Positions 19,848 to 37,845 of a stretch of DNA of 64,000 nucleotides are shown here, piece after piece. The number at the start of each line of letters is the position of its first letter. The first letter of the stretch is position 1. The notes under the pieces are model-generated. The model did no database searches, was not told where the DNA came from, and worked only from the letters and a program-made list of their open reading frames with translations. A program made the translations under genes and the position numbers. This stretch comes from Acidipropionibacterium acidipropionici (GTDB lineage Bacteria; Actinomycetota; Actinomycetes; Propionibacteriales; Propionibacteriaceae), in the NCBI RefSeq assembly GCF_001441165.1, contig NZ_CP013126.1:649551-713550 (forward strand), read 5' to 3'.

Positions 19848-20195
19848 TCAGCCCAGCATGGCGAGGTACTCGTGCAACGCGGCCAGCCCTTCGGGTCGCG
19901 GGGTGAAGTGCGCCCACTTGCCGCGCATTTCCTTGTCCACCAGCCCGGCCTCGACCAGCTTCTTCAGGTGGTGTGACAGCGTCGGCTGGGTCACGCCGAA
20001 CACCTCGGGCATGTGGCACGCGCACACGCTGGAGCACCGGCTGGCCGCGATGTGGTGCAGGATCCGCAGCCGCACCGGGTCAGCGAGCGCCTTCACGACG
20101 AGCGCAACCCGTTCCGCCTGCTCCATCGAGATCGTGCCACCACCCGGCGCGCAGGCCTCGGCGGCGGCCATCGGGGCTTCCAGCAGTTCGGTCAT
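19848..20195 (-). CDS. arsR: ArsR-family metalloregulator
   Basis: A 115-residue winged-helix repressor of the ArsR/SmtB family: VALVVKALADPVRLRILHHIAASRCSSVCACHMPEVFGVTQPTLSHHLKKLVEAGLV. The recognition helix is TQPTLSHHLKKL. Three Cys residues in RCSSVCACHM, just before the recognition helix, are a plausible As(III) site, placed as in actinobacterial ArsRs rather than the E. coli CVC motif. It is divergent from arsD and arsA across 112 bp containing an inverted repeat, so it should repress both directions and be released by arsenite. Confidence 0.93.
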   Translation of the reverse strand: MTELLEAPMAAAEACAPGGGTISMEQAERVALVVKALADPVRLRILHHIAASRCSSVCACHMPEVFGVTQPTLSHHLKKLVEAGLVDKEMRGKWAHFTPRPEGLAALHEYLAMLG

Positions 20196-20213
20196 GCAGA
20201 CATGCTACCCGCT

Positions 20214-20235
20214 CATATTGACATCTGTCGATATG
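20214..20235. promoter_or_regulatory. ArsR operator candidate between arsR and arsD
   Basis: CATATTGACA-TC-TGTCGATATG is a 10-base inverted repeat with one mismatch and a two-base spacer. A further half-site CATATCGACG lies at 20251-20260. The AT-rich CATATxGAC half-site resembles known ArsR boxes, and the position in the divergent promoter region fits control of both arsR and arsD/arsA. Confidence 0.65.
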
Positions 20236-20307
20236 TGTGCCACGCTCACTCATATCGACGGTCATCAATCCGTGATGGTCGTCCTCCACCCGAGCCGGAG
20301 GTTTCCC

Positions 20308-20730
20308 ATGCCCGTCATCCGTGTCTTCGAACCTGCACTGTGTTGCAACACCGGGGTCTGCGGCCCCGACCTCGACCAGGAGCTGGTCGACTTCACCGCC
20401 GCGGTCAACGCCCTCAAGGCGCAGGGGGTGGACGTCCACCGCGCCAATCTGGCCAGCGAGCCGGCGCAGTTCGCGGAGCACCCCGTGGTCGTCAAGTTCC
20501 TGCAGGCCGCCGGCTCCGAGGGGCTACCCCTGACGCTGGTCGACGACGTCACCGTGCTGGCCGGCCGCCACCCGCGCCGCGACGAGCTGGAGCGCTACGC
20601 CGGCCTGAACCCGACGAAGGACGCCCAGCCCCAGGGCGGATGCTGCGGCCCGCAGCAGGAAGCCCCCGCCGCGTCCACTGGCTGCTGTGGGCAGCCCGCC
20701 ACTACCAGCACCGTGTCCGGCTGCTGCTGA
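20308..20730 (+). CDS. arsD: Arsenite metallochaperone ArsD
   Basis: ArsD carries As(III) to the ArsA ATPase and can also act as a weak repressor. The 140-residue protein has the ArsD start VIRVFEPALCCNTGVCGPD with the chaperone Cys set at positions 12, 13 and 18, followed by VDFTAAVNALKAQGVDVHRANLASEP and FAEHPVVVKFLQAAGSEGLPLTLVDD. The C-terminal tail has further vicinal Cys pairs (GGCCGP, TGCCGQ, SGCC), as in plasmid-type ArsD proteins. arsA follows after 28 bp. Confidence 0.95.
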   Translation: MPVIRVFEPALCCNTGVCGPDLDQELVDFTAAVNALKAQGVDVHRANLASEPAQFAEHPVVVKFLQAAGSEGLPLTLVDDVTVLAGRHPRRDELERYAGLNPTKDAQPQGGCCGPQQEAPAASTGCCGQPATTSTVSGCC

Positions 20731-20758
20731 CCCCGACTCGAACTTTCCGGAGATGGTG

Positions 20759-22519
20759 ATGACCCAGTTTCTCGACAACCCGCCCCCGCACTTTTTCTTC
20801 ACTGGCAAGGGCGGTGTCGGCAAGACCAGCATCGCGTGCGCCACGGCCGTGCACCTCGCCCACCAGGGCAAGCGGGTGCTGCTGGTCAGCACCGACCCGG
20901 CGAGCAACATCGCCCAGGTGTTCGGTGCCACCATCGGCAACAAGATCACCCCAATTCCGCAGGTGCCCGGCCTCGACGCGCTGGAGATTGACCCCGACGA
21001 GGCCGCTGAGGCCTACCGCAACAAGATCCTGGAACCGGTGCGCGCGGTCCTGCCCATCAAGGAGATCGAGGCCATCACCGAGCAGCTGTCGGGCTCCTGC
21101 ACCACCGAGATCGCCTCGTTCAACGAGTTCACCGACCTGCTCGCCGACACCCAGGCCACCGCCGGCTACGACCACGTCATCTTCGACACCGCCCCCACCG
21201 GCCACACCATCCGCCTGCTGCAGCTGCCCGGCAGCTGGACCAGCTACCTTGACAACGGCAAGGGCGACGCGTCCTGTCTGGGGCCCATGAGCGGGCTCGA
21301 GAAGAACCGCGCCACCTACCGCGCCGCCGTCGAGGCCCTCACCGACCCCACCAGCACCCGCCTGGTGCTCGTCGCCCGGGCCCAGCAGTCCACGCTGCGC
21401 GAGGTCGCCCGCACCCTGGACGAGCTCGCCGAGCTCGACATCCACGCCACCAATTTGGTCGTCAACGGCGTCTTGCCCGCCGCGGCCGCCACCGACGACC
21501 TGTCCCGCGCCATCCACGACCGCGAACAGGCCGCGCTCGCTGCCATGCCTGCCGCCCTGGCAGCCCTGCCCCGCGACACGGTGAGCCTCAAGAGCGTCAA
21601 CATGGTCGGCCTGGAGGCACTCGCCACCCTGTTCCACGACGAGGACGCCCCGCAGGCCGACGCGCAGGACACCGGCGGGCAGGGCATCGGCCAGCAGCCG
21701 CACCTCGCCGGCCTGGTCGATGCCCTGCCCGCCGAGGCCGACCATGGGCTCGTGATGACGATGGGCAAGGGCGGTGTCGGCAAGACCACCGTCGCAGCCG
21801 CCATCGCCATCGCCCTGGTCCAGCGCGGCAAGAAGGTCCTGCTCACCACCACCGATCCCGCCGCGCACCTGTCGACCACCCTCGGCAACGACGTCGACGG
21901 GCTCGAGGTCAGCGCCATCGACCCTGAGAAGGCCATCCAGGAGTACCGCGACCACGTCATGGCCTCCAAGGGCGCCAAGCTCGACGACGCCGGCCGCGCC
22001 GCCCTCGCCGAGGACCTCATGAGCCCCTGCACCGAGGAGATCGCCGTCTTCCAGCAGTTCAGCCGCGCCGTGAACAAGGCCCGCGACCAGTTCGTCATCA
22101 TGGACACCGCCCCCACCGGCCACACCCTGCTCCTGATGGACGCCACCGGTTCCTACCACCGCGACATCACCCGCCACCTCGACGACGACCAGCGCGGCCA
22201 CGTCACCACCCCGCTGATGCGGCTCCAAGACCCCGACCACACCAAGATCATCGTGGTCACCCTGCCCGAGACCACCCCCGTCACCGAGGCGCAGGCCCTG
22301 GCCAGCGACCTGGAACGCGCCAACATCCACCCGTGGGCGTGGGTCGTGAACAACTCCCTCGCGGCAGCCCACCCCACCAGCCCACTGCTCGCCACCCGCG
22401 CACGCTCCGAGCAACAGCAGCTGGACGCGGTGGCCGCCACCACCAACCGCATGGCCGTCATCCCCACCCAGACCCGCGAACCCGTCGGCACGCAACAGCT
22501 CACCGCTCTCAGCAACTGA
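20759..22519 (+). CDS. arsA: Arsenite-stimulated ATPase ArsA
   Basis: ArsA is the ATPase that energises arsenite efflux through ArsB or Acr3. The 586-residue protein is a tandem duplication of one ATPase domain, each with the deviant P-loop GKGGVGKT (residues 16-23 and about 335-342) and the DTAPTGHT signal-transduction motif. Conserved Cys residues in SGSCTTEIA, DASCLGPM and MSPCTEEIA match the metalloid-binding cysteines of E. coli ArsA (113, 172, 422). Start 20759 was chosen because GGAG lies 7 bases upstream; an ATG at 20753 is too close to it. No arsB, acr3 or arsC follows: a hairpin and then an IS21 element come next. Confidence 0.95.
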   Translation: MTQFLDNPPPHFFFTGKGGVGKTSIACATAVHLAHQGKRVLLVSTDPASNIAQVFGATIGNKITPIPQVPGLDALEIDPDEAAEAYRNKILEPVRAVLPIKEIEAITEQLSGSCTTEIASFNEFTDLLADTQATAGYDHVIFDTAPTGHTIRLLQLPGSWTSYLDNGKGDASCLGPMSGLEKNRATYRAAVEALTDPTSTRLVLVARAQQSTLREVARTLDELAELDIHATNLVVNGVLPAAAATDDLSRAIHDREQAALAAMPAALAALPRDTVSLKSVNMVGLEALATLFHDEDAPQADAQDTGGQGIGQQPHLAGLVDALPAEADHGLVMTMGKGGVGKTTVAAAIAIALVQRGKKVLLTTTDPAAHLSTTLGNDVDGLEVSAIDPEKAIQEYRDHVMASKGAKLDDAGRAALAEDLMSPCTEEIAVFQQFSRAVNKARDQFVIMDTAPTGHTLLLMDATGSYHRDITRHLDDDQRGHVTTPLMRLQDPDHTKIIVVTLPETTPVTEAQALASDLERANIHPWAWVVNNSLAAAHPTSPLLATRARSEQQQLDAVAATTNRMAVIPTQTREPVGTQQLTALSN

Positions 22520-22592: not shown

Positions 22593-23402
22593 TCACCCGG
22601 CCTGTCGGGCTCGGGTGTGGGCGAGTCGGTAGGAGTTGGTGCCGGTTTCGATGATGATGGCGTTGTAGGTGAGGCGGTCGACGATCGCGGCGCACAGGCG
22701 GGGGTCGGTGAAGGTGTCGGTCCAGGCGGAGAAGGACTGGTTGGAGGCGATCGCGATGGCGTTCTTCTCCTCGCGTTCGGTGAGGACTTGGAACAGCAGT
22801 TCGGCGCCTCGCCGGTCGAGTTCCATGTAGCCGAGCTCGTCAATGACGAGGAGGTCGACGCGGCCGTAGCGGTTGATGGTCTTGGTGAGTTGTTTCTCGT
22901 CGGCGGCTTCGACGAGCTCGTTCACGAGCCGGGTGGCGAGGATGTATCGGACGCGGTAGCCCTGTTCGGCGGCGGCGGTGCCGAGCGCGATGAGCAGGTG
23001 GGATTTGCCGGTGCCGGAGTACCCGATCAGGCACAGGGGGTCACCGCGGCGGATCCAGTCGCCGGTGGCGAGCTCGTTGATGGTGGCGGGGTTGATGCTG
23101 GGGTTCGCGTCGAAGTCGAAGTCGGCGAGCCACTTCTCACGGGGGAAGCCGGCGCTCTTGATGCGACGCAGGGTGGAGCGCCGGTCGCGGTCGTCGACCT
23201 CGGCCAGGAGGAGTTCGGCGAGGAAGCCCTGGTAGGTGAGTTGTTCCTTGGTGGCGGCCGTCACGGCGTCGTCGACGACGGCGCGGATCGTGGGCAGCCG
23301 CAGCCGGCGGCAGGCCTGGTCGATCGCGGCCTGAGCGGCTTGCTCGGTCAGGCCCTGACGACGGCGAAGGCTCGCGGGACGGCTGGTGCTGGTGGTGGTC
23401 AT
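22593..23402 (-). CDS. istB: IS21 helper ATPase IstB
   Basis: A 269-residue AAA+ ATPase related to DnaC, which binds target DNA and activates IstA. Visible features are the Walker A LIGYSGTGKSHLLIAL, Walker B VDLLVIDELGYME and IASNQSFSAW, plus the C-terminal IIIETGTNSYRLAHTR. The N-terminal domain LRLPTIRAVVDDAVTAA and EQLTYQGFLAELLLAEVDDRDRR is standard for IstB. The start ATG at 23402 overlaps the istA stop by four bases, so translation is coupled. Confidence 0.93.
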   Translation of the reverse strand: MTTTSTSRPASLRRRQGLTEQAAQAAIDQACRRLRLPTIRAVVDDAVTAATKEQLTYQGFLAELLLAEVDDRDRRSTLRRIKSAGFPREKWLADFDFDANPSINPATINELATGDWIRRGDPLCLIGYSGTGKSHLLIALGTAAAEQGYRVRYILATRLVNELVEAADEKQLTKTINRYGRVDLLVIDELGYMELDRRGAELLFQVLTEREEKNAIAIASNQSFSAWTDTFTDPRLCAAIVDRLTYNAIIIETGTNSYRLAHTRARQAG

Positions 23403-25066
23403 GGGGTTCCTGTCGGGGTGTGGTGGTGAGTCTCGGCGGGGGCCGGGGCGGGATCGGGTTGGCGTCGACGCAGGAGTTCGTCGTAGGCGGTGACGGTGGG
23501 CAGGGGCCGGGTGTCTTCGGGCAGGTGCGCGATGACCTGGTGCGGGTTGGTGGGGCGTCGGGGTGGCAGGTTCACGACCGTCCCGCCCCTGGTCGGGCTG
23601 GCTGGGGCGGGTGTGTGGGTGGTGGCATGGCGGCGGGCTTCGACGGCGACGACGTCGGGGCTGATCGCGCCCACCGACAGGGCCGAGGTGATGCCGGCGA
23701 TCACCGCGTCGGACGGGAGGGATCGGTGGAGCAGGAGCACGTCGATCAACGCTTGGGTCCCGGCCACGTCGCCGCTGGTCTTGCGGGCTGCGGCCCAGAA
23801 CGCGTCGTGGGCCGCGGTGAATGCTCCGGCGGCGCGGGCCTGCGCGAGGGCGGTGGAGCCGGGGAACGCGCCGGGCTTGTGCCGCAGCACTTCGAGGTAG
23901 TGGTCCAGCTCGACCCGGGTCACGCCACGGGTGCCGCGGCGAGGGTGGGTGGCGAGGACGGTGCGGCCCTCGAACACGACCACGCACGAGGCCCGCAGGG
24001 ACACGCGGACGCGTTGGCCGATGAGGTGGGCGGGGACGGAGTACTTGACCATGCAGACGGTGATCAGGGCGGAGCGGTCGACGCGGGGGTGGAGGATCAG
24101 GCCGGGGTCGAAGTCGTCGGCCGGCAACGGTGCCAGGTGGGGCAGCTCGGCGTGGTGGTCCTGCCCGATCGTGTTGGCGTGGCCGGTGATGCGGCGGGTG
24201 TTGTCGTCGTGCTCCCAGGCGCGGATCTTGTCGTTGAGTTCGTCCAGGGTGGCGACTTCGGGCATGGGGGTGAGGTGGTTGCGGCGGAACCATCCGACCT
24301 CGCCCTCGACGCCGCCTTTCTCGTGGGCGCCGTCGATGCCGGGCTGGCAGTAGAACGCGTCGAAGCCGTAGTGGGAGCGGAACAGCACCCAGCGTTCGTT
24401 CTCGTCGCGTAGCCGGTCGCCGCCGTGGATGACCTGGACGACGGCGGAGGTGAGGTTGTCGTAGCGGATGTGGCGGGTGGGGATGCCGCCCAGGGCATGG
24501 AAGGCCTCGATGTGTCCTTCGAGGAAGGCCTCCTGTCCGCCGGTCGGGTAGACGCGGTGGATGGCCTTGCCGGAGTGGGACAGGCGGTAGACGAACATGT
24601 GGCACTTGGTCTTGACGCCGTCCAGGATGACGTAGACCTCGCCGAAGTCGACCTCGGCCTCCGCGCCGGGGGCGTGGTCCTGCGGCACCATCGCCTCCAC
24701 CCGGCGCCCGGCCTCCAGATCGATCTGCGCGCGCCTGACCCGGACGTAGTCCCGCACCGTGGAGTAGGACAGGTCGGTGGCGCCGTGCTCGTCGCGCAGC
24801 CGGGCCAGGATCCTGGTCGCGGTATGGCGCTGCTTGCGCGGCGCGGTCAGGTCATAGGTGAGCATCTCGTCGATCGCCGGCTTGTACGGGTCCAGGCGCG
24901 GTGCTGTGCGGACCGGTTTCTTGCGGGGTGGGGGTTCGGCTGCGGCGAGTGCCTGGCGGACGGTGCGGCGGTGGACTCCGTGTTTGCGGGCGAGCTCGCG
25001 GATGGACAGGCCATCGACTCGCGCGTCGTGGCGGATGTCGGCGTACAGCTGCACTCGTGATCCCAT
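23399..25066 (-). CDS. istA: IS21 transposase IstA
   Basis: A 555-residue DDE transposase of the IS21 type. It begins with a helix-turn-helix (LSIRELARKHGVHRRTVRQALA), has YSTVRDYVRVRRAQI, and a catalytic core with EAEVDFGEVYVILDGVKTK (first Asp), RHIRYDNLTSAV (second Asp) and the Glu in GAHEKGGVEGEVGWFRR. The C-terminal beta-barrel has YSVPAHLIGQRVRVSL. It appears intact, so the element could be active. Confidence 0.94.
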   Translation of the reverse strand: MGSRVQLYADIRHDARVDGLSIRELARKHGVHRRTVRQALAAAEPPPRKKPVRTAPRLDPYKPAIDEMLTYDLTAPRKQRHTATRILARLRDEHGATDLSYSTVRDYVRVRRAQIDLEAGRRVEAMVPQDHAPGAEAEVDFGEVYVILDGVKTKCHMFVYRLSHSGKAIHRVYPTGGQEAFLEGHIEAFHALGGIPTRHIRYDNLTSAVVQVIHGGDRLRDENERWVLFRSHYGFDAFYCQPGIDGAHEKGGVEGEVGWFRRNHLTPMPEVATLDELNDKIRAWEHDDNTRRITGHANTIGQDHHAELPHLAPLPADDFDPGLILHPRVDRSALITVCMVKYSVPAHLIGQRVRVSLRASCVVVFEGRTVLATHPRRGTRGVTRVELDHYLEVLRHKPGAFPGSTALAQARAAGAFTAAHDAFWAAARKTSGDVAGTQALIDVLLLHRSLPSDAVIAGITSALSVGAISPDVVAVEARRHATTHTPAPASPTRGGTVVNLPPRRPTNPHQVIAHLPEDTRPLPTVTAYDELLRRRQPDPAPAPAETHHHTPTGTP

Positions 25067-25473: not shown

Positions 25474-25959
25474 TCACAGCTCCGTGGTCCCCGTCCCGCC
25501 GGGGGTGTCGCCGCCGGTGACCTTGGCCTTGAGGATCTGGGCCACACCTGCGACCTTGCCACCGGGCAGGCCCCAGTACTGTGCGGACTCACTGGTGACC
25601 AGCACCAGGGCCAGGTTCGGATCGTCCACGCCGTCGGGGAAGTAGCTCTTGGCGGAGTCGTCCCACAGCTCGGCGATCTTGGCGCGGTCCTCGACGAACT
25701 TGGCCCTGCCCGCCACGGACAACCAGGATCCGGCCTCGGAGACGTTGAGGTTCACCTCGGGGCCCTGACGCAGGGCGTCGGCCTGATCGCCCTGCAGGCC
25801 CACGAACAGCCACACATCAGCATCGTCGGTGACGTCCTGGACGGTCATGGGGTGGGACAGCAGCTTGCCGTCGGCGCGGGCGGTGGTCAGCATGACGATG
25901 CTGGTGCCGCGCAGCTTCTCGACGACGTCCTGCTGGGTGAAGTCCTGGTCGGTGCTCAC
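25474..25959 (-). CDS. Pyridoxamine-5'-phosphate-oxidase-fold protein (general stress protein 26-like)
   Basis: A 161-residue split-barrel flavoprotein-type domain: DVVEKLRGTSIVMLTTARADGKLLSHPMTVQDVTDDADVWLFVG, then VNLNVSEAGSWLSVAGRAKFVEDRAKIAELWDDSAKSYFPDG. This is the pattern of actinobacterial general-stress/PNPOx-like proteins that bind FMN or F420. W-D-D-S-A-K-S-Y-F-P is typical of the GSP26 subgroup. The GTG start at 25959 has GGAGG 5 bases upstream and is preferred over longer frames. It is divergent from the PLP/FAD cassette with a 298 bp spacer. Its substrate is not known. Confidence 0.85.
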   Translation of the reverse strand: MSTDQDFTQQDVVEKLRGTSIVMLTTARADGKLLSHPMTVQDVTDDADVWLFVGLQGDQADALRQGPEVNLNVSEAGSWLSVAGRAKFVEDRAKIAELWDDSAKSYFPDGVDDPNLALVLVTSESAQYWGLPGGKVAGVAQILKAKVTGGDTPGGTGTTEL

Positions 25960-26257
25960 GGTTCCTCCATCGGGTCGAGCGGGTGGTCGAACGGGGTGCG
26001 GGCCCCTGGGCCACACCTGGATGAGCGGGCGCGCCGACGTCGGGCGGCCGCGCCCGGTGATGCGTCGACCGTAGGCTCCGCACCTGCGACGGGCACCCAG
26101 GAACCCGACCGACCGGTCCCGGGATGCCAGGCAGCTCGTCGCGCACTCCGGCGGCCACCAGCACCCTTCGGGACCGGATGCGGGTGCCACGCCCCCTCGA
26201 CCATTCGGTCACAGCAGGCCGTCCGTTCATGGGGCCTGCATGTTGTAGCGTGGCCAG
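25960..26257. promoter_or_regulatory. Divergent intergenic region upstream of the PLP/FAD cassette
   Basis: No gene is seen in these 298 bases. Directly before the SbnA-like gene, TAGCGT at 26246-26251 (preceded by TGT) can serve as a -10 box. Transcription starting about 7 bases later would begin at the GTG start codon itself, giving a leaderless message. This agrees with the absence of a ribosome-binding site there. No clear -35 box or operator was found. Confidence 0.4.
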
Positions 26258-27445
26258 GTGACCCACACCTCCGGCTCCCCGCAGCGGGAGCATACCAGCA
26301 GCACGCCCGCGGATGACCGGCCGCCCGCCACCCCCACCGAGGCGGCCACCAGCGGACCCGACATCCCCGTCGGCCTCGACAACGCCCCGGAGGGCCCGGG
26401 CGTCTCCGCGGCGGGGTTCGCGTCCCCCGTGCCCGCGATCGTGGCCGGGATCAGCGAGGCCATCGGGAACACTCCCCTGATCCGTCTGGACTCCCTGTTC
26501 CCCGACTCCGGGGTGGAGATCCTGGCGAAGCTGGAGTCGGTGAACCCGGGCGGCTCCACCAAGGACCGGCCGGCGATGGGCATGGTGCGCGACGCCCTGC
26601 AGACCGGGCGACTGGCCCCCGGCGGCACCGTGGTGGAGTCCTCCTCCGGCAACCTTGGCGTGGCCCTGGCCCGTGCCTGCAACGCCCACGACGTGCGGTT
26701 CGTGTGCGTGGTCGACGCCCGTACCAACGCCACCACCGTGCGCACCATCCAGGCGCTCGGCGGGGAGATCGACCTGGTGTCCGAGCCCGATCCAGCTACC
26801 GGCGACCTGCTCACCGCCCGCTTCAACCGGGTCAAGGAGCTGCTGGAGGAGATCCCCGATGCGGTGAACCTGTACAAGTACGGCAATCCCGCCAATCCCC
26901 GTGCCCACTACGACGGCACCATGCGGGAGATCGCCGAGGCCACCGGGCACCAGGTGGACGTGCTGATGGCGGCGGTGTCCACGACCGGAACCATCGGCGG
27001 CTGCTCCGCGTACATCCGCGACCACGGCATGAGCACCCGCGCGATCGCGGTCGACGCGGTGGGCTCGGTTCTGTTCGGTGGCACCGCCGCGCCCCGCCCC
27101 CTGCCCGGCATGGGTGCGGGCGTGGTCACCGAGCTGTCCCGCCAGGTTCAACCCGATCAGGTGATCCGCGTGGAGGGCCTGGACTGCGTGGTGGGCGCCC
27201 GGCACCTGGCACGCAGCGAGGGCATCCTGGCCGGGGGCTCCACCGGCGGCATCGTGCATGCCCTGGGCGGGCTGATCCCCAGCCTCGAGCCCGGCACCCG
27301 CGTGGTGTTCGTGGTGCACGACGGCGGCGTTCCCTACCTGGAGACCGTGTACGACGACCAGTGGGTGCGGGAGAACCTCGACGCCGACACGGACGCGATC
27401 GCGGAGGGGATCGAGCAGCTGCGCAGGACCGCCCGCCGTGGCTGA
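26258..27445 (+). CDS. SbnA-like PLP-dependent synthase (cysteine synthase fold)
   Basis: A fold-type II PLP enzyme of 395 residues. After a 65-residue unstructured Pro/Ala/Thr-rich N-terminus come IGNTPLIRLDSLFPDSGVEILAKLE, the PLP-lysine motif NPGGSTKDRPA, VVESSSGNLGVALARACNA, the phosphate loop STTGTIGGCSAYI and the C-terminal GILAGGSTGGIV. The closest known group is SbnA, which makes N-(1-amino-1-carboxy-2-ethyl)-L-glutamate from O-phosphoserine and glutamate during staphyloferrin B synthesis; O-acetylserine-type synthases are an alternative. It overlaps the next gene by 8 bases, so the three genes form a tight operon. No SbnB (ornithine-cyclodeaminase-like) partner is present. Confidence 0.82.
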   Translation: MTHTSGSPQREHTSSTPADDRPPATPTEAATSGPDIPVGLDNAPEGPGVSAAGFASPVPAIVAGISEAIGNTPLIRLDSLFPDSGVEILAKLESVNPGGSTKDRPAMGMVRDALQTGRLAPGGTVVESSSGNLGVALARACNAHDVRFVCVVDARTNATTVRTIQALGGEIDLVSEPDPATGDLLTARFNRVKELLEEIPDAVNLYKYGNPANPRAHYDGTMREIAEATGHQVDVLMAAVSTTGTIGGCSAYIRDHGMSTRAIAVDAVGSVLFGGTAAPRPLPGMGAGVVTELSRQVQPDQVIRVEGLDCVVGARHLARSEGILAGGSTGGIVHALGGLIPSLEPGTRVVFVVHDGGVPYLETVYDDQWVRENLDADTDAIAEGIEQLRRTARRG

Positions 27446-29519
27446 GCAGCCCTCCGTCCGGGCCGGCACGGCCCATCCGGCCCGCAGCGACGGTGCTGCC
27501 CGCCCGATTCGCGACGACCGCACTGCACCGCCCATGGCAGCCGCTGAGACACCGCTTCGCCCGGCCGCCGATGCGCCGCTGCGGCTCGCCGTCGTCGGTG
27601 CCGGACCGAAGGCGCTGTACGCGCTGGAGGAACTGACCGCGCTGCTGGATGCTGCGGGCTCCGCCACGGCCACCGCCGACGACGCGGGAGCTGCGGCCTC
27701 CGAATCGTCAGCAGCATCCGGCCTGATCGTGACGGTGATCGATCCTGTCGCCGTGCCGGGTACGGGCGCCGCCTACCACTCCGGCCAGCCGCACCACCTG
27801 CGGCTGAACGTGACCGCGGCGATCCTGGATGAGCCCGCCACCGGCGACTTCCCCGCGTACCCCAGTTGGGTGCAGGACCCGTACCCGCAGCTGGCCGACG
27901 AGCCGTACCCGCCGCGCGCGGTGGTCGGCGAGTACCTCGCCCAGCGCTGGCAGCAGATGATCCATGGTCTCTCCCGGCATGCCCGCGTGGAGCACGCCCG
28001 GGCCCGGGTGACGGACCTGCGGCGCGAGGGCAGCGCCTGGCATCTGACCACCGACGCTGCTCCCGCGGACGTCGGCCCGGTGGACGAGGTGCTGATCGCC
28101 ACCGGTCACGCCGCTGGCCACCGGGGCGCCCTGGTGCACCACTGGAGTTCACCCCTCCCCCTGGTCCCGGCGGTGCTGCCCGCTGAGCGGATGCTCAGCG
28201 CCGAGCAGGTCCCACCCGGTTCCCGGGTCGCGGTGCGCGGCGGGGCGCTGACCTTCATCGACGCCTGCCTGACCCTCACCGAGGGCCGCGGCGGCACCTT
28301 CACCGAGAGCACCGAGGTCGACGCGAGCGGCGGCACCGAGGCGGATGTCCCTGCCCGCCTGGTGCACCATCGCGGGCCGCACGAGCCGACCGTGATTCGG
28401 CCGATCACCCGGCAGGGTCTGCTGCTGGATGCGAAGCCGGACCCGGGATCACCCCTGACCGGGTCCGGCGAGCGCGCCGTCGAGCAGGCCCGCGCCCGAT
28501 TCACCTCCGGCCAGGGCATGGGCCCGGACGCGGTGCTGGCGATCGTGGTCGATGCCGCCACCGCCATGCTCGAGGGGACACCCGCGCCCAAGAAGCACGC
28601 CAGTACCTCGGGACGGGATGCGCGCGACACCGTCGCTGGTTCTCGCGCGGCCGTCGAACACACGCTGAGCACCGGTGCGGAACCCGATCTGCCCCGCGGC
28701 GCGGGGCGCGCCGAGGCGGCGCTGCGTCGCAGTATCGAGACGGCCCAGGGCCACCGCTCGCCCGGTCCGGCCTGGGCGCTGGGTCGCGTGTGGCAGACCC
28801 TCTACTCCCTGGTCTCCGCCGCCCTGCGCGGCAGCGACGCCCCCGAGGAGGAGTGGGCGCGCTTCCGGCAGACCGCGCAGGTGCTGGAGCGGTTCGCCTT
28901 CGGCCCTCCGCTGGTCAACGCCCGCAAGCTGCTGGCGATGATCGACTCCGGCGCGGTGGACCTGTCCTGGATGGATGGTGGGACGGGCATCGACGGCAAC
29001 AGCATCCATGTCGCGCCCGTGACCGAGAGCTCCGACGCCACTGCCACCGGCCGGCATGTTGACGCCACTGCCACCGGCCGGCACGACGACGCACCGTCGG
29101 GCGGCGATGTCGACGTGGTGATCGACGCGGTGCTCACCCCGCCCGGTCTGCTGAACCTCACCGACGAGCTGGCGGGGTCGCTGCTGCACCGCGGCCTGGT
29201 GCAGGTGCGGCCCGGCAGGCGGGGGGCGATGATCGACGAGGCCGGCTCCCCCGTCGGCCGCGATGACGCGCCACTGGTCGCCCCCGACGGTCGGACCGTG
29301 GCCGGGCTCGCGCTGATCGGGCGGCCCACAGAGGACCATGTCATCGGCCACGACTCGCTGAACCGCCACCTGCACCACGAGGGCCGATGCTGGGCCCGAC
29401 GGATCGCGGACCGGGTTGCGGGCGTTGCCGATGCCGCTCCCGCTGACGCGGCCGCCCCTGCCGCGCCGGCTGACGCAGCTGTTCCTGCCGCCCCCGCCCC
29501 CGCTGTCGCCCCCGAGTGA
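27438..29519 (+). CDS. FAD/NAD(P)-binding protein of the FAD-NAD(P)-binding (PF13454-like) family
   Basis: A 693-residue flavoprotein. The nucleotide loop is LRLAVVGAGPKALYALEEL (about residues 47-65), followed by VTVIDPVAVPGTGAAYHSGQPHHLRLNV, DFPAYPSWV, PPRAVVGEYLAQRW and the second strand DEVLIATGHAAGHRG. This group resembles lysine/ornithine N-monooxygenase-like and HpyO-type oxidoreductases of unknown reaction. Low-complexity inserts are present: an imperfect tandem repeat around residues 533-549 and an Ala/Pro-rich tail. Translation may begin at GTG 27438, overlapping the upstream stop, or at ATG 27534 nearer the domain. Between two PLP genes it probably oxidises or hydroxylates an amino-acid intermediate (inference). 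Confidence 0.72.
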   Translation: MAEQPSVRAGTAHPARSDGAARPIRDDRTAPPMAAAETPLRPAADAPLRLAVVGAGPKALYALEELTALLDAAGSATATADDAGAAASESSAASGLIVTVIDPVAVPGTGAAYHSGQPHHLRLNVTAAILDEPATGDFPAYPSWVQDPYPQLADEPYPPRAVVGEYLAQRWQQMIHGLSRHARVEHARARVTDLRREGSAWHLTTDAAPADVGPVDEVLIATGHAAGHRGALVHHWSSPLPLVPAVLPAERMLSAEQVPPGSRVAVRGGALTFIDACLTLTEGRGGTFTESTEVDASGGTEADVPARLVHHRGPHEPTVIRPITRQGLLLDAKPDPGSPLTGSGERAVEQARARFTSGQGMGPDAVLAIVVDAATAMLEGTPAPKKHASTSGRDARDTVAGSRAAVEHTLSTGAEPDLPRGAGRAEAALRRSIETAQGHRSPGPAWALGRVWQTLYSLVSAALRGSDAPEEEWARFRQTAQVLERFAFGPPLVNARKLLAMIDSGAVDLSWMDGGTGIDGNSIHVAPVTESSDATATGRHVDATATGRHDDAPSGGDVDVVIDAVLTPPGLLNLTDELAGSLLHRGLVQVRPGRRGAMIDEAGSPVGRDDAPLVAPDGRTVAGLALIGRPTEDHVIGHDSLNRHLHHEGRCWARRIADRVAGVADAAPADAAAPAAPADAAVPAAPAPAVAPE
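29035..29084 (+). repeat. In-gene tandem duplication
   Basis: A 23-base sequence beginning GACGCCACTGCCACCGGCCG occurs at 29035-29057 and again at 29062-29084, in phase with the reading frame. It encodes DATATGRH twice in a linker of the FAD/NAD(P)-binding protein. It is probably a slippage product. Confidence 0.85.
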
Positions 29520-29530
29520 GAGGACCTGCC

Positions 29531-31240
29531 GTGACCGAGGAACCCACCCTGCGCGAGGCATGCCAGGGAACCCCGCCGCTGTCGGCTCGTCTGGAGCCGT
29601 GGATGCAGGAGCTGCTGGCGGACCCTGCGACCTGCAGCTCGCTGCTGGAGCGCTACGGAAGCCCGCTGAACGTGCACGACTTTTCCGCGCTGCCGCGCAA
29701 CGCCGCAGAGCTCACGGAGGTGGCCGAGGGCTCTGGGGTGGACCTGCGGATCTCCGTGGCACGCAAGGCCAACAAGACCTTCGGCATGGTGCGTGCCGCG
29801 CATCGCGCCGGGCTGGGGGTCGACGTGGGCAGCGAGCGCGAGCTGGGCCAGGTGCTCGAGGCCGGTGTGCCGCCGCATGACGTGGTGGTCACCGCGGCCA
29901 TCAAGCCCGATCCGGTGCTGCGCCTGGCCCTGGAGTCCCGCTCACTGCTGGTGCTGGACAACCTCGACGAGGTGGCCGCCTCCCGGAGGGTCGCCGAGCA
30001 GGTCACCGGCGCCCGGAGCGCGGAACCAGGTCGCCCCGCGGACGGGGCCTCTGGTGCCCCCGAGCCGTTCCCCGTGGCGCTGCGCCTCGCGCCCAAGCCC
30101 AGCGACCTGATCCCGCCCACCCGCTTCGGGGAGTCGGCCCGCGCCTGGCTCGAGCTGATCGACTCCGGCGGCCTGGGCGACCTGCTGCGGGTGGACGGTG
30201 TGCACTTCCACCTGCACGGCTATGACCCGACCGCGCGCGCCACCGCCCTCGGGGAGGCGCTGGAGCTGATCGACGCGCTGCGCGAGCGCGGCCTGGCCCA
30301 GGATGGCGCGTTCGTGGACATCGGCGGCGGCATCCCGATGAGCTACCTGGACGATGCCGAGCAGTGGGACGCCTTCTGGCAGGCCCACGAGCGGCAGGCC
30401 CCGGAGTCGGGCCTCGGCGGGGGTGCTCGCGCGGCCGACGACGACCGGCCCGCGGCTGCCCCCGACGCCGGCGAGGACGCCCCCACCGCCCCGCTGACCT
30501 GGCGCCGGGAACCGCTGCGGCAGGTGTACCCCTACCACCAGCAGGTGATCCGCGGGCCCTGGCTGGAGCGGTTCCTGGGCCACGAGATCCGCCCGGGTGC
30601 CACTGCCGGGCAGGCCCTGCGAGAGCGCGGGGTGCAGCTGCGCTGCGAGCCGGGCCGCTCCATGATGGACGGTTGCGGCATGACGCTGGCGAGGGTCATC
30701 CAGCGCACCAGTGCCAGCGACGGCGTGCCCCTGGTGGGGCTGGAGATGAACCGCACCCAGTGCCGCTCCACCTCCGACGACTTCCTGGTGGACCCGATCC
30801 TGGTGCGCACCGGCACACGCGACGATGCCACGGATCCGTCGGTCGCCGGTGCCGGGCAGAGCAGGGCGAGCGAACGGTTCGAGGGGTTCCTGGTGGGCGC
30901 CTACTGCATCGAGGCCGAGCTGATCCTGCGTCGGCGCCTCGCGTTCCCGCAGGGTGTGGCCGTGGGCGATGTGATCGCCCTGCCCAACACCGCCGGGTAC
31001 CTGATGCACATCCTAGAGAGCGCGTCCCACCAGATCCCCCTGGCCTCCAACGTGGAGCGCGTCGGCGGTGGGGAGGCAGGCGGATCCGGAGGTGACCACC
31101 CCAGCGCAGAGGTGGCGGACCGCAGCAGGATGGGCGGCACGGACCACAGCAGCACCGCCGTCGAAGGCAGCGATCCCCGTCCTGATGTGCCCGGGTTCAA
31201 GCGCGACGGCATCGACCGGGTGCTGCCCATCCGGGCCTGA
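29531..31240 (+). CDS. Y4yA/SbnH-like group IV PLP decarboxylase
   Basis: A 569-residue enzyme of the alanine-racemase/DapDC fold (group IV decarboxylases). It has YGSPLNVHDFSALPRNAAEL, the PLP-lysine strand LRISVARKANKTFGMVRAA, GLGVDVGSERELGQVLEAG, the glycine loop VDIGGGIPMSY, and near the C-terminus LRCEPGRSMMDGCGMTLARV and FLVGAYCIEAELILRRR. The R-K-A-N-K lysine block matches the Y4yA subgroup. SbnH is the siderophore relative that decarboxylates a citryl-diaminopropionate intermediate. GTG 29531 has GAGAGGA upstream and lies 11 bp after the FAD gene stop. Several acidic linkers (residues about 290-330 and 510-550) are extra to the family core. Confidence 0.82.
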   Translation: MTEEPTLREACQGTPPLSARLEPWMQELLADPATCSSLLERYGSPLNVHDFSALPRNAAELTEVAEGSGVDLRISVARKANKTFGMVRAAHRAGLGVDVGSERELGQVLEAGVPPHDVVVTAAIKPDPVLRLALESRSLLVLDNLDEVAASRRVAEQVTGARSAEPGRPADGASGAPEPFPVALRLAPKPSDLIPPTRFGESARAWLELIDSGGLGDLLRVDGVHFHLHGYDPTARATALGEALELIDALRERGLAQDGAFVDIGGGIPMSYLDDAEQWDAFWQAHERQAPESGLGGGARAADDDRPAAAPDAGEDAPTAPLTWRREPLRQVYPYHQQVIRGPWLERFLGHEIRPGATAGQALRERGVQLRCEPGRSMMDGCGMTLARVIQRTSASDGVPLVGLEMNRTQCRSTSDDFLVDPILVRTGTRDDATDPSVAGAGQSRASERFEGFLVGAYCIEAELILRRRLAFPQGVAVGDVIALPNTAGYLMHILESASHQIPLASNVERVGGGEAGGSGGDHPSAEVADRSRMGGTDHSSTAVEGSDPRPDVPGFKRDGIDRVLPIRA

Positions 31241-31548: not shown

Positions 31549-33000
31549 GGGGTCAAGTCCCTGGTAGTGGTGTATCCGTTTCGTGATCTTTCGATACGGG
31601 GTCAGGCTGCCAGTTCGGGTGGGATGGGGTCTGCTCCTTCCAGGCGGGTCTGGTCTTCGCTGACGGGGGTCTGAGGGATCCGTGAGCGTTCCAGGACCTC
31701 CAGGCCCAGGTAGCGCCGGCCCTCGGCCCACTCATCGGTCTGCTCGGCCAGCACGGCCCCGACGAGCCGGATGACGGCCTCCCTGTTGGGAAAGATCCCC
31801 ACGGCATCGGTACGCCGCCGGATCTCCTTGTTCAGCCGCTCCTGAGGATTGTTCGACCAGATCTGGCGCCACACGTCGACCGGGAAACTCGTGAACGCCA
31901 ACAGATCGGCCCGCGCGGCGTCCAGATGGGCATGGACCTGGGGAAGCTTGGCCTCCACATAGTCCAGCAGCCGGTCGAACTGGGCATCCACGGCGGCCGC
32001 GGAGGGCTGGTCGTAGACCGAGTGGAGCATGGCCTTGACCGCCGGCCACAGGCTCTTGGGACACACGCTCATCAGATTGGCCGCGTAGTGGGTCCGGCAC
32101 CGCTGCCAGGCAGCCCCGGGCAGGTTCGCCGCGATCGCCTCCCTCAGCCCGGCATGGGCATCAGAAGTGACCAGCCGCACCCCGGACAGGCCCCGGGCCA
32201 CCAGATCGGCGAAGAACGTGTTCCAGGCCGGCCCGGTCTCAGCGGTGGCGACCTGGAGGCCCAGGACCTCCCGGTGGCCGTCAGCGTTGACCCCGGTCGC
32301 GGTCAGCACGACCGCGTTGATGACCCGTCCGGCCTCCCGGACCTTCATCGTCAGGGCGTCAGCGGCCACGAACGTGAACGGGCCCGCCTCGCCCAGAGGC
32401 CTGTGGCGGAAGGCCTCGACCTGGGCGTCGAGGTCGGCGGCCATCCGCGAGACCTGGGACTTCGACAAGGAGTCGATACCCAGCTGCTTGACGAGCTTGT
32501 CCATCCGGCGGGTGGAGACCCCGGCCAGGTAGGCGTCGGCGACCACGGTGATCATCGCCGACTCGGCGCGCTTGCGCCGCTCCAGCAGCCACTCTGGGAA
32601 GTAGCTGCCCTGGCGGAGCTTGGGGATCGCCACATCCACCGTGCCGACCCGGGTGTCCAGGTCGCGGTGACGGTAGCCGTTGCGCTGGACGAGGCGGTCG
32701 GGATCGGGGCGGCCGTACTCCGCGCCGGCGACCTGGTCGGCGTCGGCCGACAGGAGCATGTTGATCATCGTGGCCAGCAGTGAGCGCAACAGGTCCGGGG
32801 AGGCCTGGCCCAGGGCTTGGTCCAGGACCCGCGTCGGGTCGACAATATGGGCAGCGGTCATCGTGGTTGTTCCTTTCGAGTGAGAAGTAGAGAGCTTTCT
32901 CGAAGGATCACACGGTGACCGCGCTGCCGTCCACCACGAAGTCGCGGAGGCCGACGGGCTGGTCACCAGCGGGTTACACCACCATAAGGGGCACTACTCC
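31549..33000 (-). mobile_element. IS256-family insertion sequence
   Basis: The terminal repeats are GGGGTCAAGTCCCTGGTAGT, then GGTGTA (from 31549), and GGAGTAGTGCCCCTTATGGT, then GGTGTA (complement, from 33000), matching at 18 of 26 positions with the same length. The total is about 1452 bp with one transposase gene. Flanking octamers CTGCTGAT and TCGCGGGG do not match, so a clean target duplication is not seen. Confidence 0.82.
31602..32861 (-). CDS. IS256-family transposase
   Basis: A 419-residue mutator-type transposase: LVQRNGYRHRDLDTRVGTVDVAIPKLRQGSYFPEWLLERRKRAE, the first Asp in FTFVAADALTMKVREAGRV, the second in VRLVTSDAHAGLREAI, the C-C/H motif WQRCRTHYAANL, and the Glu in the IWSNNPQERLNKEIRRRTD block. 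The ATG at 32861 begins MTAAHIVDPTRVLDQALG. A longer frame to 32966 has no family similarity and was not used. It appears intact. Confidence 0.94.
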   Translation of the reverse strand: MTAAHIVDPTRVLDQALGQASPDLLRSLLATMINMLLSADADQVAGAEYGRPDPDRLVQRNGYRHRDLDTRVGTVDVAIPKLRQGSYFPEWLLERRKRAESAMITVVADAYLAGVSTRRMDKLVKQLGIDSLSKSQVSRMAADLDAQVEAFRHRPLGEAGPFTFVAADALTMKVREAGRVINAVVLTATGVNADGHREVLGLQVATAETGPAWNTFFADLVARGLSGVRLVTSDAHAGLREAIAANLPGAAWQRCRTHYAANLMSVCPKSLWPAVKAMLHSVYDQPSAAAVDAQFDRLLDYVEAKLPQVHAHLDAARADLLAFTSFPVDVWRQIWSNNPQERLNKEIRRRTDAVGIFPNREAVIRLVGAVLAEQTDEWAEGRRYLGLEVLERSRIPQTPVSEDQTRLEGADPIPPELAA

Positions 33001-33153: not shown

Positions 33154-36434
<3,281 letters not shown>

Positions 36435-36456
36435 ACCCACCGAGAGACCCGAAACC

Positions 36457-37845
36457 ATGCCCACACACGCTGCAAGTTCTGGCAAGACGTACCTGACCTG
36501 GGGCAACAAGATCGGCTACGGCTCCGGTGACATCGCCGGCAACGTGGTCTACACGTTCCTGTCGGCCTTCCTGATGATCTACCTGACCGACCAGATGGGC
36601 CTCAACGCCGGTGTCATCGGCACGCTCATGATGGTCGCCCAGCTGTTCAATGGTGTCACCGACATCGGTTTCGGGGCCTTGCTCGACCGCACCCATACCC
36701 GAATGGGCAAGGCTCGGCCGTGGATGCTGTGGCCCTACATCGGCTGCGCTGTCACCCTGGTCGCCAGCTTCGCCATCCCCGGCGGGCTCAGTGAGACGGG
36801 CAAGTACATCTGGTTCTTCCTCGCCTATACCCTGCTCAACTCGGTGTTCTTCACCGCGAACAACATCGCCTACTCGGCGCTGACGGCGCTGATCACCAGG
36901 AACTCCGCCGAACGAGTACAGATGGGCTCCATCCGCTTCATGTTCGCGTTCACCACCAGCATGCTCATCCAGACCTTCACCGTCCAGGGCGTGCGCATGC
37001 TGGGTGGCGGCGCCGACGGGTGGCGGGCCATCGCGATCATCTATGCCGTCATCGGTCTGGCGGTTAACACAATCTCGGTGCTGTCGGTCAAGGAGCTGCC
37101 GCCCGAAGAGCTTGACGAGGGCCACGATCCGGCCGCCGCCGAGCGCTACTCGTTCAAGGAGGGCGCCCGGATCCTGCTCGCCAACAAGTTCTATCTGATC
37201 ATCCTGGTCATCTACCTGGTCCAGCAGATCTTCACCGCCACCCTGAACATGGGCATCTACTTCATGACCTACGTCCTCGGTGACGCGACCCGTCTGGGCG
37301 CCTTCGCATGGGCGATCAACATTCCGCTGATCATCGGACTGCTGTTCACCCCCGTTCTGGTCAAGCGCTACGGACAGATGTACCGCCTCAACATCTGGGG
37401 TTACGTCGTCGCCGTCCTGGGCCGCTTGGGTGTCGTGGCCGGTGGCTACATGGGCAGCATCCCCCTCATGATCGCCTCCTCCGCGATCGCCTCTCTGGGC
37501 ATGAGCCCCCTGCAAGGCACTCTCAATGCGCTGATCGCCGAGGCCTCCGAGTACACCTTCCTGCGCACCGGCAAGCACATCGACGGCATGATGTTCTCCT
37601 GCACCACCCTCGGTGTGAAGATCGGCGGCGGCGTCGGAACAGCCTTGGCCGGATGGCTCTTGGCCGCCAGCGGCTACGTCAGCAACGCCACCACCCAGAG
37701 CAGCTCCGCGATCCACATGCTCTACTTCATGTACCTGTGGATCCCCGCCATCGCCAACCTCATCATCCTCGCCTTCCTCACCCGGCTCGACGTCGAGAAG
37801 GCCAACCGGGCGCTGCGCACGTCGGCAGACCGCGTGACCGCGTGA
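36457..37845 (+). CDS. GPH-family lactose/galactoside symporter
   Basis: A 462-residue, twelve-helix GPH symporter (LacS/MelB relatives): NKIGYGSGDIAGNVVYTFLSAFLMIYLTDQMGL, GFGALLDRTHTRMGKARPWMLWPY, NSVFFTANNIAYSALTALITRNSAERVQMGS, and YTFLRTGKHIDGMMFSCTTLGVKIGGGVG. It lacks the C-terminal IIA domain of streptococcal LacS. It lies between lacZ (22 bp before) and galE (45 bp after), so lactose or a galactoside is the probable cargo. Similar lacZ-symporter-galE sets are known as horizontally acquired islands in dairy propionibacteria. Confidence 0.9.
   Translation: MPTHAASSGKTYLTWGNKIGYGSGDIAGNVVYTFLSAFLMIYLTDQMGLNAGVIGTLMMVAQLFNGVTDIGFGALLDRTHTRMGKARPWMLWPYIGCAVTLVASFAIPGGLSETGKYIWFFLAYTLLNSVFFTANNIAYSALTALITRNSAERVQMGSIRFMFAFTTSMLIQTFTVQGVRMLGGGADGWRAIAIIYAVIGLAVNTISVLSVKELPPEELDEGHDPAAAERYSFKEGARILLANKFYLIILVIYLVQQIFTATLNMGIYFMTYVLGDATRLGAFAWAINIPLIIGLLFTPVLVKRYGQMYRLNIWGYVVAVLGRLGVVAGGYMGSIPLMIASSAIASLGMSPLQGTLNALIAEASEYTFLRTGKHIDGMMFSCTTLGVKIGGGVGTALAGWLLAASGYVSNATTQSSSAIHMLYFMYLWIPAIANLIILAFLTRLDVEKANRALRTSADRVTA

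Follow-up and report, generated by a model that had tools for sequence, protein, structure and literature searches.

A mobile synthase-flavoprotein-decarboxylase cassette as a candidate route to a decarboxylated, N-oxygenated amino-acid derivative

A 64-kb stretch of DNA from Acidipropionibacterium acidipropionici (contig NZ_CP013126.1, positions 649,551 to 713,550; "the window" means this whole stretch, to which coordinates and strands refer) carries three tightly packed genes, and raises the question of what two pyridoxal 5'-phosphate (PLP) enzymes could make together with the flavoprotein encoded between them. All three genes lie on the + strand: an SbnA-like PLP beta-substitution synthase (gene 1, 26258..27445, 395 aa, of which the N-terminal ~60 aa are variable), a flavin adenine dinucleotide (FAD)/NAD(P)-binding protein with an FzmM/CreE-type class B N-hydroxylating monooxygenase fold (gene 2, 27438..29519, 693 aa), and a Y4yA-type fold-III PLP decarboxylase (gene 3, 29531..31240, 569 aa, with an alternative upstream GTG start at 29516). 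An earlier note, made from the sequence alone, had described this layout, and the open reading frames (ORFs) agree with it: genes 1 and 2 overlap by exactly 8 bases, and an 11-base gap separates gene 2 from the GTG start of gene 3 at 29531, which is the most likely start because homologues in loci L017 and L018 begin there, while the GTG at 29516 gives a 4-base overlap. That the three genes form one compact operon and a functional unit is supported. The reading that we favour, at about an even chance, is that the cassette is a self-contained, horizontally mobile module that would turn an SbnA product, probably N-(1-amino-1-carboxyl-2-ethyl)-glutamic acid (ACEGA), into a derivative that is both decarboxylated and N-oxygenated.

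The cassette is more than a chance arrangement, since its gene order recurs across genera and plasmids and its genes show dN/dS ratios of 0.16–0.62. The nearest named locus is that of Brachybacterium nesterenkovii, at 98.8-99% protein identity, and the genome is Brachybacterium-like in this respect. Scanning genome contigs with gene 2 gave ten loci, of which L015-L023 contain all three genes in the same order (Brachybacterium, Microbacterium), and L024, cut by a contig end, retains genes 2 and 3. Within a sample of the family, the flavoprotein occurs in 16 of 198 genomes and has both partners adjacent in 13 of those 16 (our own, G547, G539, G540, G556, G023, G554, G550, G551, G020, G459, G465 and G461); contig ends truncate the locus in G478 and G557, one partner being visible in each, G014 has an orphan flavoprotein only, and G023 and G557 carry additional orphan copies besides. 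Orphan flavoproteins without cassette partners nearby were also seen at L031, L034 and L052, that of L034 being split between frames. In the converse search, 23 family genomes gave a strong SbnA match, with the flavoprotein or a relative adjacent in 15 (L114, L116-L129) and different neighbours in the others. Rare co-occurrence, which would have spoken against the joint action proposed in the earlier note, was thus not seen, and the strong co-occurrence and recurrent order speak for it. In a 396-genome spread of the phylum, the flavoprotein matched in 8; the whole cassette was found in our own genome and in three genomes of family f19, which belongs to another class, the other matches being more distant flavoproteins without partners.

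The order SbnA-FAD-Y4yA is also present on Tsukamurella plasmid pTpau01 and on Sulfitobacter plasmids. The public record of pTpau01 annotates the second half of the flavoprotein only (L025:10538-11974); homology begins upstream, overlapping the synthase stop. In the trees, the window proteins group with Microbacterium and not with most Brachybacterium, and those of Sulfitobacter group with f19, which argues for horizontal transfer. The three proteins show correlated pairwise distances (r 0.85-0.92; Mantel 0 of 2000), and stop and start codons overlap at most cassette junctions. Genes 2 and 3 share one uninterrupted frame in L020, in L051 and also in L046 (genome G540, 80% complete), apparently as natural monooxygenase-decarboxylase fusions. 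An all-against-all ORF comparison around 13 loci revealed no further conserved partner beyond Brachybacterium-internal synteny, and gene 3 had no match in phage records.

The first enzyme of the cassette is of the SbnA type. Gene 1 scores 358 bits against the SbnA model TIGR03945 (cut-off 349.95) and 214.5 bits against the cysKM model, well under the cut-off of 344; its best solved structure is SbnA 5d84 (E 9.4e-69). In maximum-likelihood trees, 20 of 20 cassette synthases form one clade (96/96) next to Staphylococcus aureus SbnA (88/85) and not with CysK, so that a grouping with ordinary cysteine synthases is not observed; a housekeeping CysK is encoded elsewhere in the genome. Lys47, Arg132, Tyr152 and Ser185 of SbnA are all conserved in gene 1. 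Arg132, Tyr152 and Ser185 are responsible for O-phosphoserine selection in SbnA (PMC12414870), and all three are kept in 20/20 cassette synthases, while position 185 is Gly in the SbnB-linked, opine-linked and other clusters and in CysK. Because these selectivity residues are kept, predicted use of O-phosphoserine by the cassette synthase is well supported, and formation of ACEGA from O-phosphoserine and glutamate is plausible.

The last enzyme is a decarboxylase distinct from the housekeeping one. Gene 3 matches PF02784 and scores 72.5 bits against the LysA model TIGR01048, far under its cut-off of 297.9; the true housekeeping LysA is encoded elsewhere in the genome (G000:C1:2682884). All 20 of the 20 cassette decarboxylases form one maximum-likelihood clade (99/99) separate from LysA, which does not agree with a housekeeping diaminopimelate decarboxylase. 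K84, H232, EPGR 378-381, C464 and Y495 (numbered from start 29516) are kept in essentially all cassettes and relatives, and the Sulfitobacter homologue is annotated "Y4yA family PLP-dependent enzyme". Against solved structures, gene 3 scores better with diaminopimelate decarboxylases than with 6knh, which we take to be SbnH; it shares fold and reaction class with S. aureus SbnH, which is not its closest relative by sequence. The earlier note had placed two of the three genes nearest to staphyloferrin B enzymes: this stands for gene 1, by TIGR03945, 5d84 and the tree, and does not stand for gene 3.

The middle protein decides what kind of product is to be expected. Gene 2 matches PF13454, and a single-sequence search of solved structures returned nothing; a profile of nine cassette flavoproteins gave one convincing structure match, the aspartate N-hydroxylase 8cp2/8cp5 (E 7e-21), 8cp2 being the L-aspartate N-hydroxylase FzmM/CreE (PMC10404684). 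An AlphaFold2 model of gene 2 (mean predicted local distance difference test score, pLDDT, 68.7; predicted template modelling score, pTM, 0.73) contains two dinucleotide-binding domains and a helical substrate-domain insert, and matches 8cp2 along its full length (Foldseek E 3.8e-22, TM 0.58/0.66; VIA Z 23.5 over 517 residues, next family 16.1). The catalytic Asn62 of 8cp2, which lies over flavin C4a, corresponds to N124, invariant in cassette flavoproteins; the aromatic residue at 51 is retained (Trp51 = Tyr113), as is a basic residue at 13 (Arg13 = Lys58). Because profile, predicted fold and catalytic Asn all match the FzmM/CreE type, gene 2 is assigned by class to these N-hydroxylating monooxygenases, an assignment supported at the level of a predicted structure, and the predicted chemistry is therefore N-oxygenation and not dehydrogenation. 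Unlike FzmM/CreE, gene 2 is set between two PLP enzymes, and Arg276, Asn413 and Arg416 of the aspartate entry chamber are not conserved in a MAFFT alignment that has low certainty in this region; this lack of conservation makes aspartate an unlikely substrate and suggests another one.

Comparison with related clusters indicates which position the flavoprotein has taken. In the staphyloferrin B pathway, ACEGA is the product of SbnA and gives rise to diaminopropionate, which loses CO2 once it has been joined to citrate (PMC12414870, PMC9301485). The cassette resembles that pathway in gene 1, by model, tree and selectivity residues, but is without SbnB and SbnC/E/F, and has the N-monooxygenase in the SbnB slot. 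The absence of SbnB and of the nonribosomal-peptide-synthetase-independent siderophore (NIS) synthetases, noted earlier for the locus, extends to the genome: there is no match to IucA/IucC NIS synthetases (PF04183), so that staphyloferrin-type assembly is unlikely, and the single SbnB match (TIGR03944), a weak ornithine cyclodeaminase (OCD) homologue outside the cassette, reaches 82.6 bits against a cut-off of 326.9.

A decarboxylase search of the phylum found three other arrangements around Y4yA and a synthase: synthase-OCD-Y4yA-multidrug and toxic compound extrusion (MATE) exporter in L070 and on the M. avium plasmid pMAH135 (L030); OCD-Y4yA-synthase-MATE in L071-L074; and Y4yA-synthase in L092 and L095, next to a gene that only sequence reading identifies as class V aminotransferase-like. 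The OCD clusters (pMAH135, G206, G079, G106, G290, G407) have the same synthase and decarboxylase families, and in pMAH135 and G206 the SbnB-like gene occupies the same middle slot as the flavoprotein; they differ in the dehydrogenase itself, in the MATE exporter and in a synthase with Gly185, and G079, G407, G106 and G290 also in gene order. The rhizobial y4yA-type cluster of Sinorhizobium chiapasense plasmid pB (L029) likewise has a synthase, a Y4yA decarboxylase and an oxidoreductase, but the latter is an opine dehydrogenase, accompanied by IucA/IucC, a major facilitator superfamily (MFS) exporter and a TonB receptor in another gene order. Flavoprotein and SbnB-like (OCD) genes never occur together in the clusters found, and in the related clusters an SbnB-like or an opine dehydrogenase takes the place of the flavoprotein; the oxidoreductase slot is therefore exchangeable and is filled here by a monooxygenase, as the earlier note had supposed in placing a flavoprotein where the dehydrogenase would be. 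As observations in their own right, L070-L074, L090, L091 and pMAH135 make up a parallel, undescribed-looking cluster of SbnA-like synthase, SbnB-like dehydrogenase, Y4yA and MATE, and the neighbour gene in L092/L095, which reads as a class V aminotransferase/cysteine desulfurase, marks a third cluster type.

Taken in gene order, the enzymes suggest a short route. The SbnA-like enzyme would swap the phosphate of O-phospho-L-serine for the nitrogen of an amino acid, most likely L-glutamate, to give ACEGA or a close analogue, a step supported by residues and tree. The flavoprotein, probably with a non-aspartate pocket, would then add oxygen to a nitrogen of this intermediate at the expense of NADPH and O2, its class being supported and its substrate presumed. 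The Y4yA-type decarboxylase, supported in fold and catalytic residues, would take off the serine-derived carboxylate of a presumed substrate and leave an ethylenediamine-like part; the order of N-oxygenation and decarboxylation is likewise presumed. Such a route would end in a small amino-acid conjugate or diamine, N-oxygenated and decarboxylated, that would leave the cell without an exporter of its own. The earlier outline, in which the synthase joins, the flavoenzyme oxidises and the decarboxylase finishes, is still the best that the sequence offers, with the oxidation now predicted as N-oxygenation. A more specific and tentative version, possible though not probable, has the monooxygenase replace SbnB by N-oxygenating the secondary amine of ACEGA; the nitrone would hydrolyse to 2-oxoglutarate and N-hydroxylated diaminopropionate, which the decarboxylase would turn into N-hydroxy-ethylenediamine (or a nitro or oxime compound). 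L-alanosine offers a nearby precedent, as N-hydroxylation of diaminopropionate has been proposed there, by a different flavoenzyme family (PMC11705231).

Several points weigh against this N-oxygenation route. The exclusion of aspartate depends on an uncertain alignment, and in the predicted structure the helical substrate domain aligns poorly, the model having a mean pLDDT of 68.7. Gene 1 exceeds the TIGR03945 cut-off by a small margin, and several homologues in the family do not quite reach it. Part of the distance correlation among the partners reflects species relatedness. What the flavoenzyme acts on, and whether N-oxygenation or decarboxylation comes first, is guesswork, and genes elsewhere may complete the product.

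The alternatives differ mainly in what they make of the flavoprotein. It could do the job of SbnB by other means, cleaving ACEGA by oxidation at the Glu C-N bond into L-2,3-diaminopropionate and 2-oxoglutarate, from which the decarboxylase would form ethylenediamine or a derivative with no N-O bond; its exact occupation of the SbnB-like slot of pMAH135 and G206, the mutual exclusion of the two genes, a synthase of the type whose product SbnB normally processes, and a sole OCD homologue that is weak and located elsewhere all agree with this, but in fold and catalytic Asn the flavoprotein matches N-hydroxylating monooxygenases and not amine oxidases or dehydrogenases, and we hold it doubtful. 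Were the flavoprotein instead a CreE-type aspartate N-hydroxylase, whose product the PLP enzymes would use in an aspartate-nitrosuccinate (nitrite-donor) system, the closest solved structure would be explained; however, the aspartate-binding residues are not conserved, within the uncertainty of that alignment, no CreD-like nitrosuccinate lyase is found in the cassettes or the annotated regions around them, and 8cp2 is matched much more closely by other actinobacterial proteins, for instance the one at L041 (E 2.4e-91), so that this is the least probable of the readings considered and very improbable.

Other explanations look beyond the cassette. It could be a precursor supply module whose diaminopropionate, ethylenediamine or related block would feed in trans into an assembly line encoded elsewhere, for a siderophore or something else: diaminopropionate and its decarboxylated form are parts of staphyloferrin B (PMC9301485), the rhizobial relative adjoins IucA/IucC and a TonB receptor, and the cassette has no adjoining exporter. 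We consider this unlikely, as the genome has no IucA/IucC match, the cassettes have no common fourth gene, the cassette moves alone among unrelated genomes and plasmids, and scans of the upstream regions with the chosen consensus sequences and mismatch limits found no IdeR/DmdR or Zur box. The same missing boxes, the lack of an NIS match and the lack of an adjacent transporter leave the link to iron that the earlier note had entertained without support. They also count against an aminopolycarboxylate metallophore like rhizobactin or ethylenediamine disuccinate (EDDS), with an ethylenediamine core from synthase and decarboxylase. In rhizobactin, alanine, lysine and malic acid are joined to an ethylenediamine group (PMC7676072), and the Sinorhizobium Y4yA-synthase-opine dehydrogenase-IucA-MFS cluster has parts that would match it, its link to rhizobactin being presumed. 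The cassette, however, has neither opine dehydrogenase nor NIS enzyme, nor an adjacent receptor or exporter, which makes a metallophore quite improbable.

The combination of enzymes was not found in the literature searched, which took in few subscription journals, and the cassette product appears undescribed, in line with the earlier proposal. Searches keyed to NIS or nonribosomal peptide synthetase signature genes may miss such a cassette. The small size of the cassette, its apparent completeness and its mobility, which spans at least two phyla, would allow transfer into a laboratory host and direct readout of the product. Should the flavoenzyme N-oxygenate an SbnA-type product, the FzmM fold would gain a new use and N-O compounds a minimal route; if it does so in place of SbnB, three enzymes would turn phosphoserine and glutamate into an N-O metabolite without carrier protein or assembly line. 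The swap of oxidoreductases (SbnB-like, opine dehydrogenase, N-monooxygenase) among SbnA/Y4yA clusters provides a rule for finding further pathways.

Mobile elements flank the cassette on both sides and no transporter is next to it, as the earlier note had observed. An IS21-type element lies to the left (22593..25066, - strand; PF22483 Mu-transpos_C_2), in which an IstB-like ATPase motif is readable by eye in the frame 22593-24605, and a Mutator/IS256-family transposase to the right (31602..32966, - strand; PF00872, E 3.3e-132). Upstream of gene 1 is the palindrome ACCGACCGGT (26108..26117, no strand), a possible operator, which we take to resemble that of a TetR-type regulator. The motif ACCGNNCGGT is present, at varying distance, in the 400 bp preceding gene 1 in six diverged Brachybacterium loci (window 26108-26117, L019, L020, L021, L022, L023), and is not upstream of gene 1 in Microbacterium L017/L018 nor in L033; the 64-kb window contains 6 copies. 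No structured RNA upstream of the cassette was matched in Rfam. A pyridoxamine-5'-phosphate-oxidase-like gene (25474..25959, - strand; PF16242, E 5.5e-39) is divergent from gene 1 and is not a core member: homologues adjoin the cassette in L015, L016, L020, L022, L032 and L099, and not in all cassettes. This PF16242 gene takes one of two positions: in Brachybacterium it runs divergently from gene 1, and in L032 it lies downstream of gene 3 (L032:7574-7984). Further out, arsenic resistance genes (ArsR PF01022, ArsA PF02374; window 19848-22519) adjoin the left IS21-type element, and to the right of the IS256-family transposase a LacZ-type beta-galactosidase (PF02836, PF02929) is followed by an MFS_2 sugar transporter (window 33327-37845).

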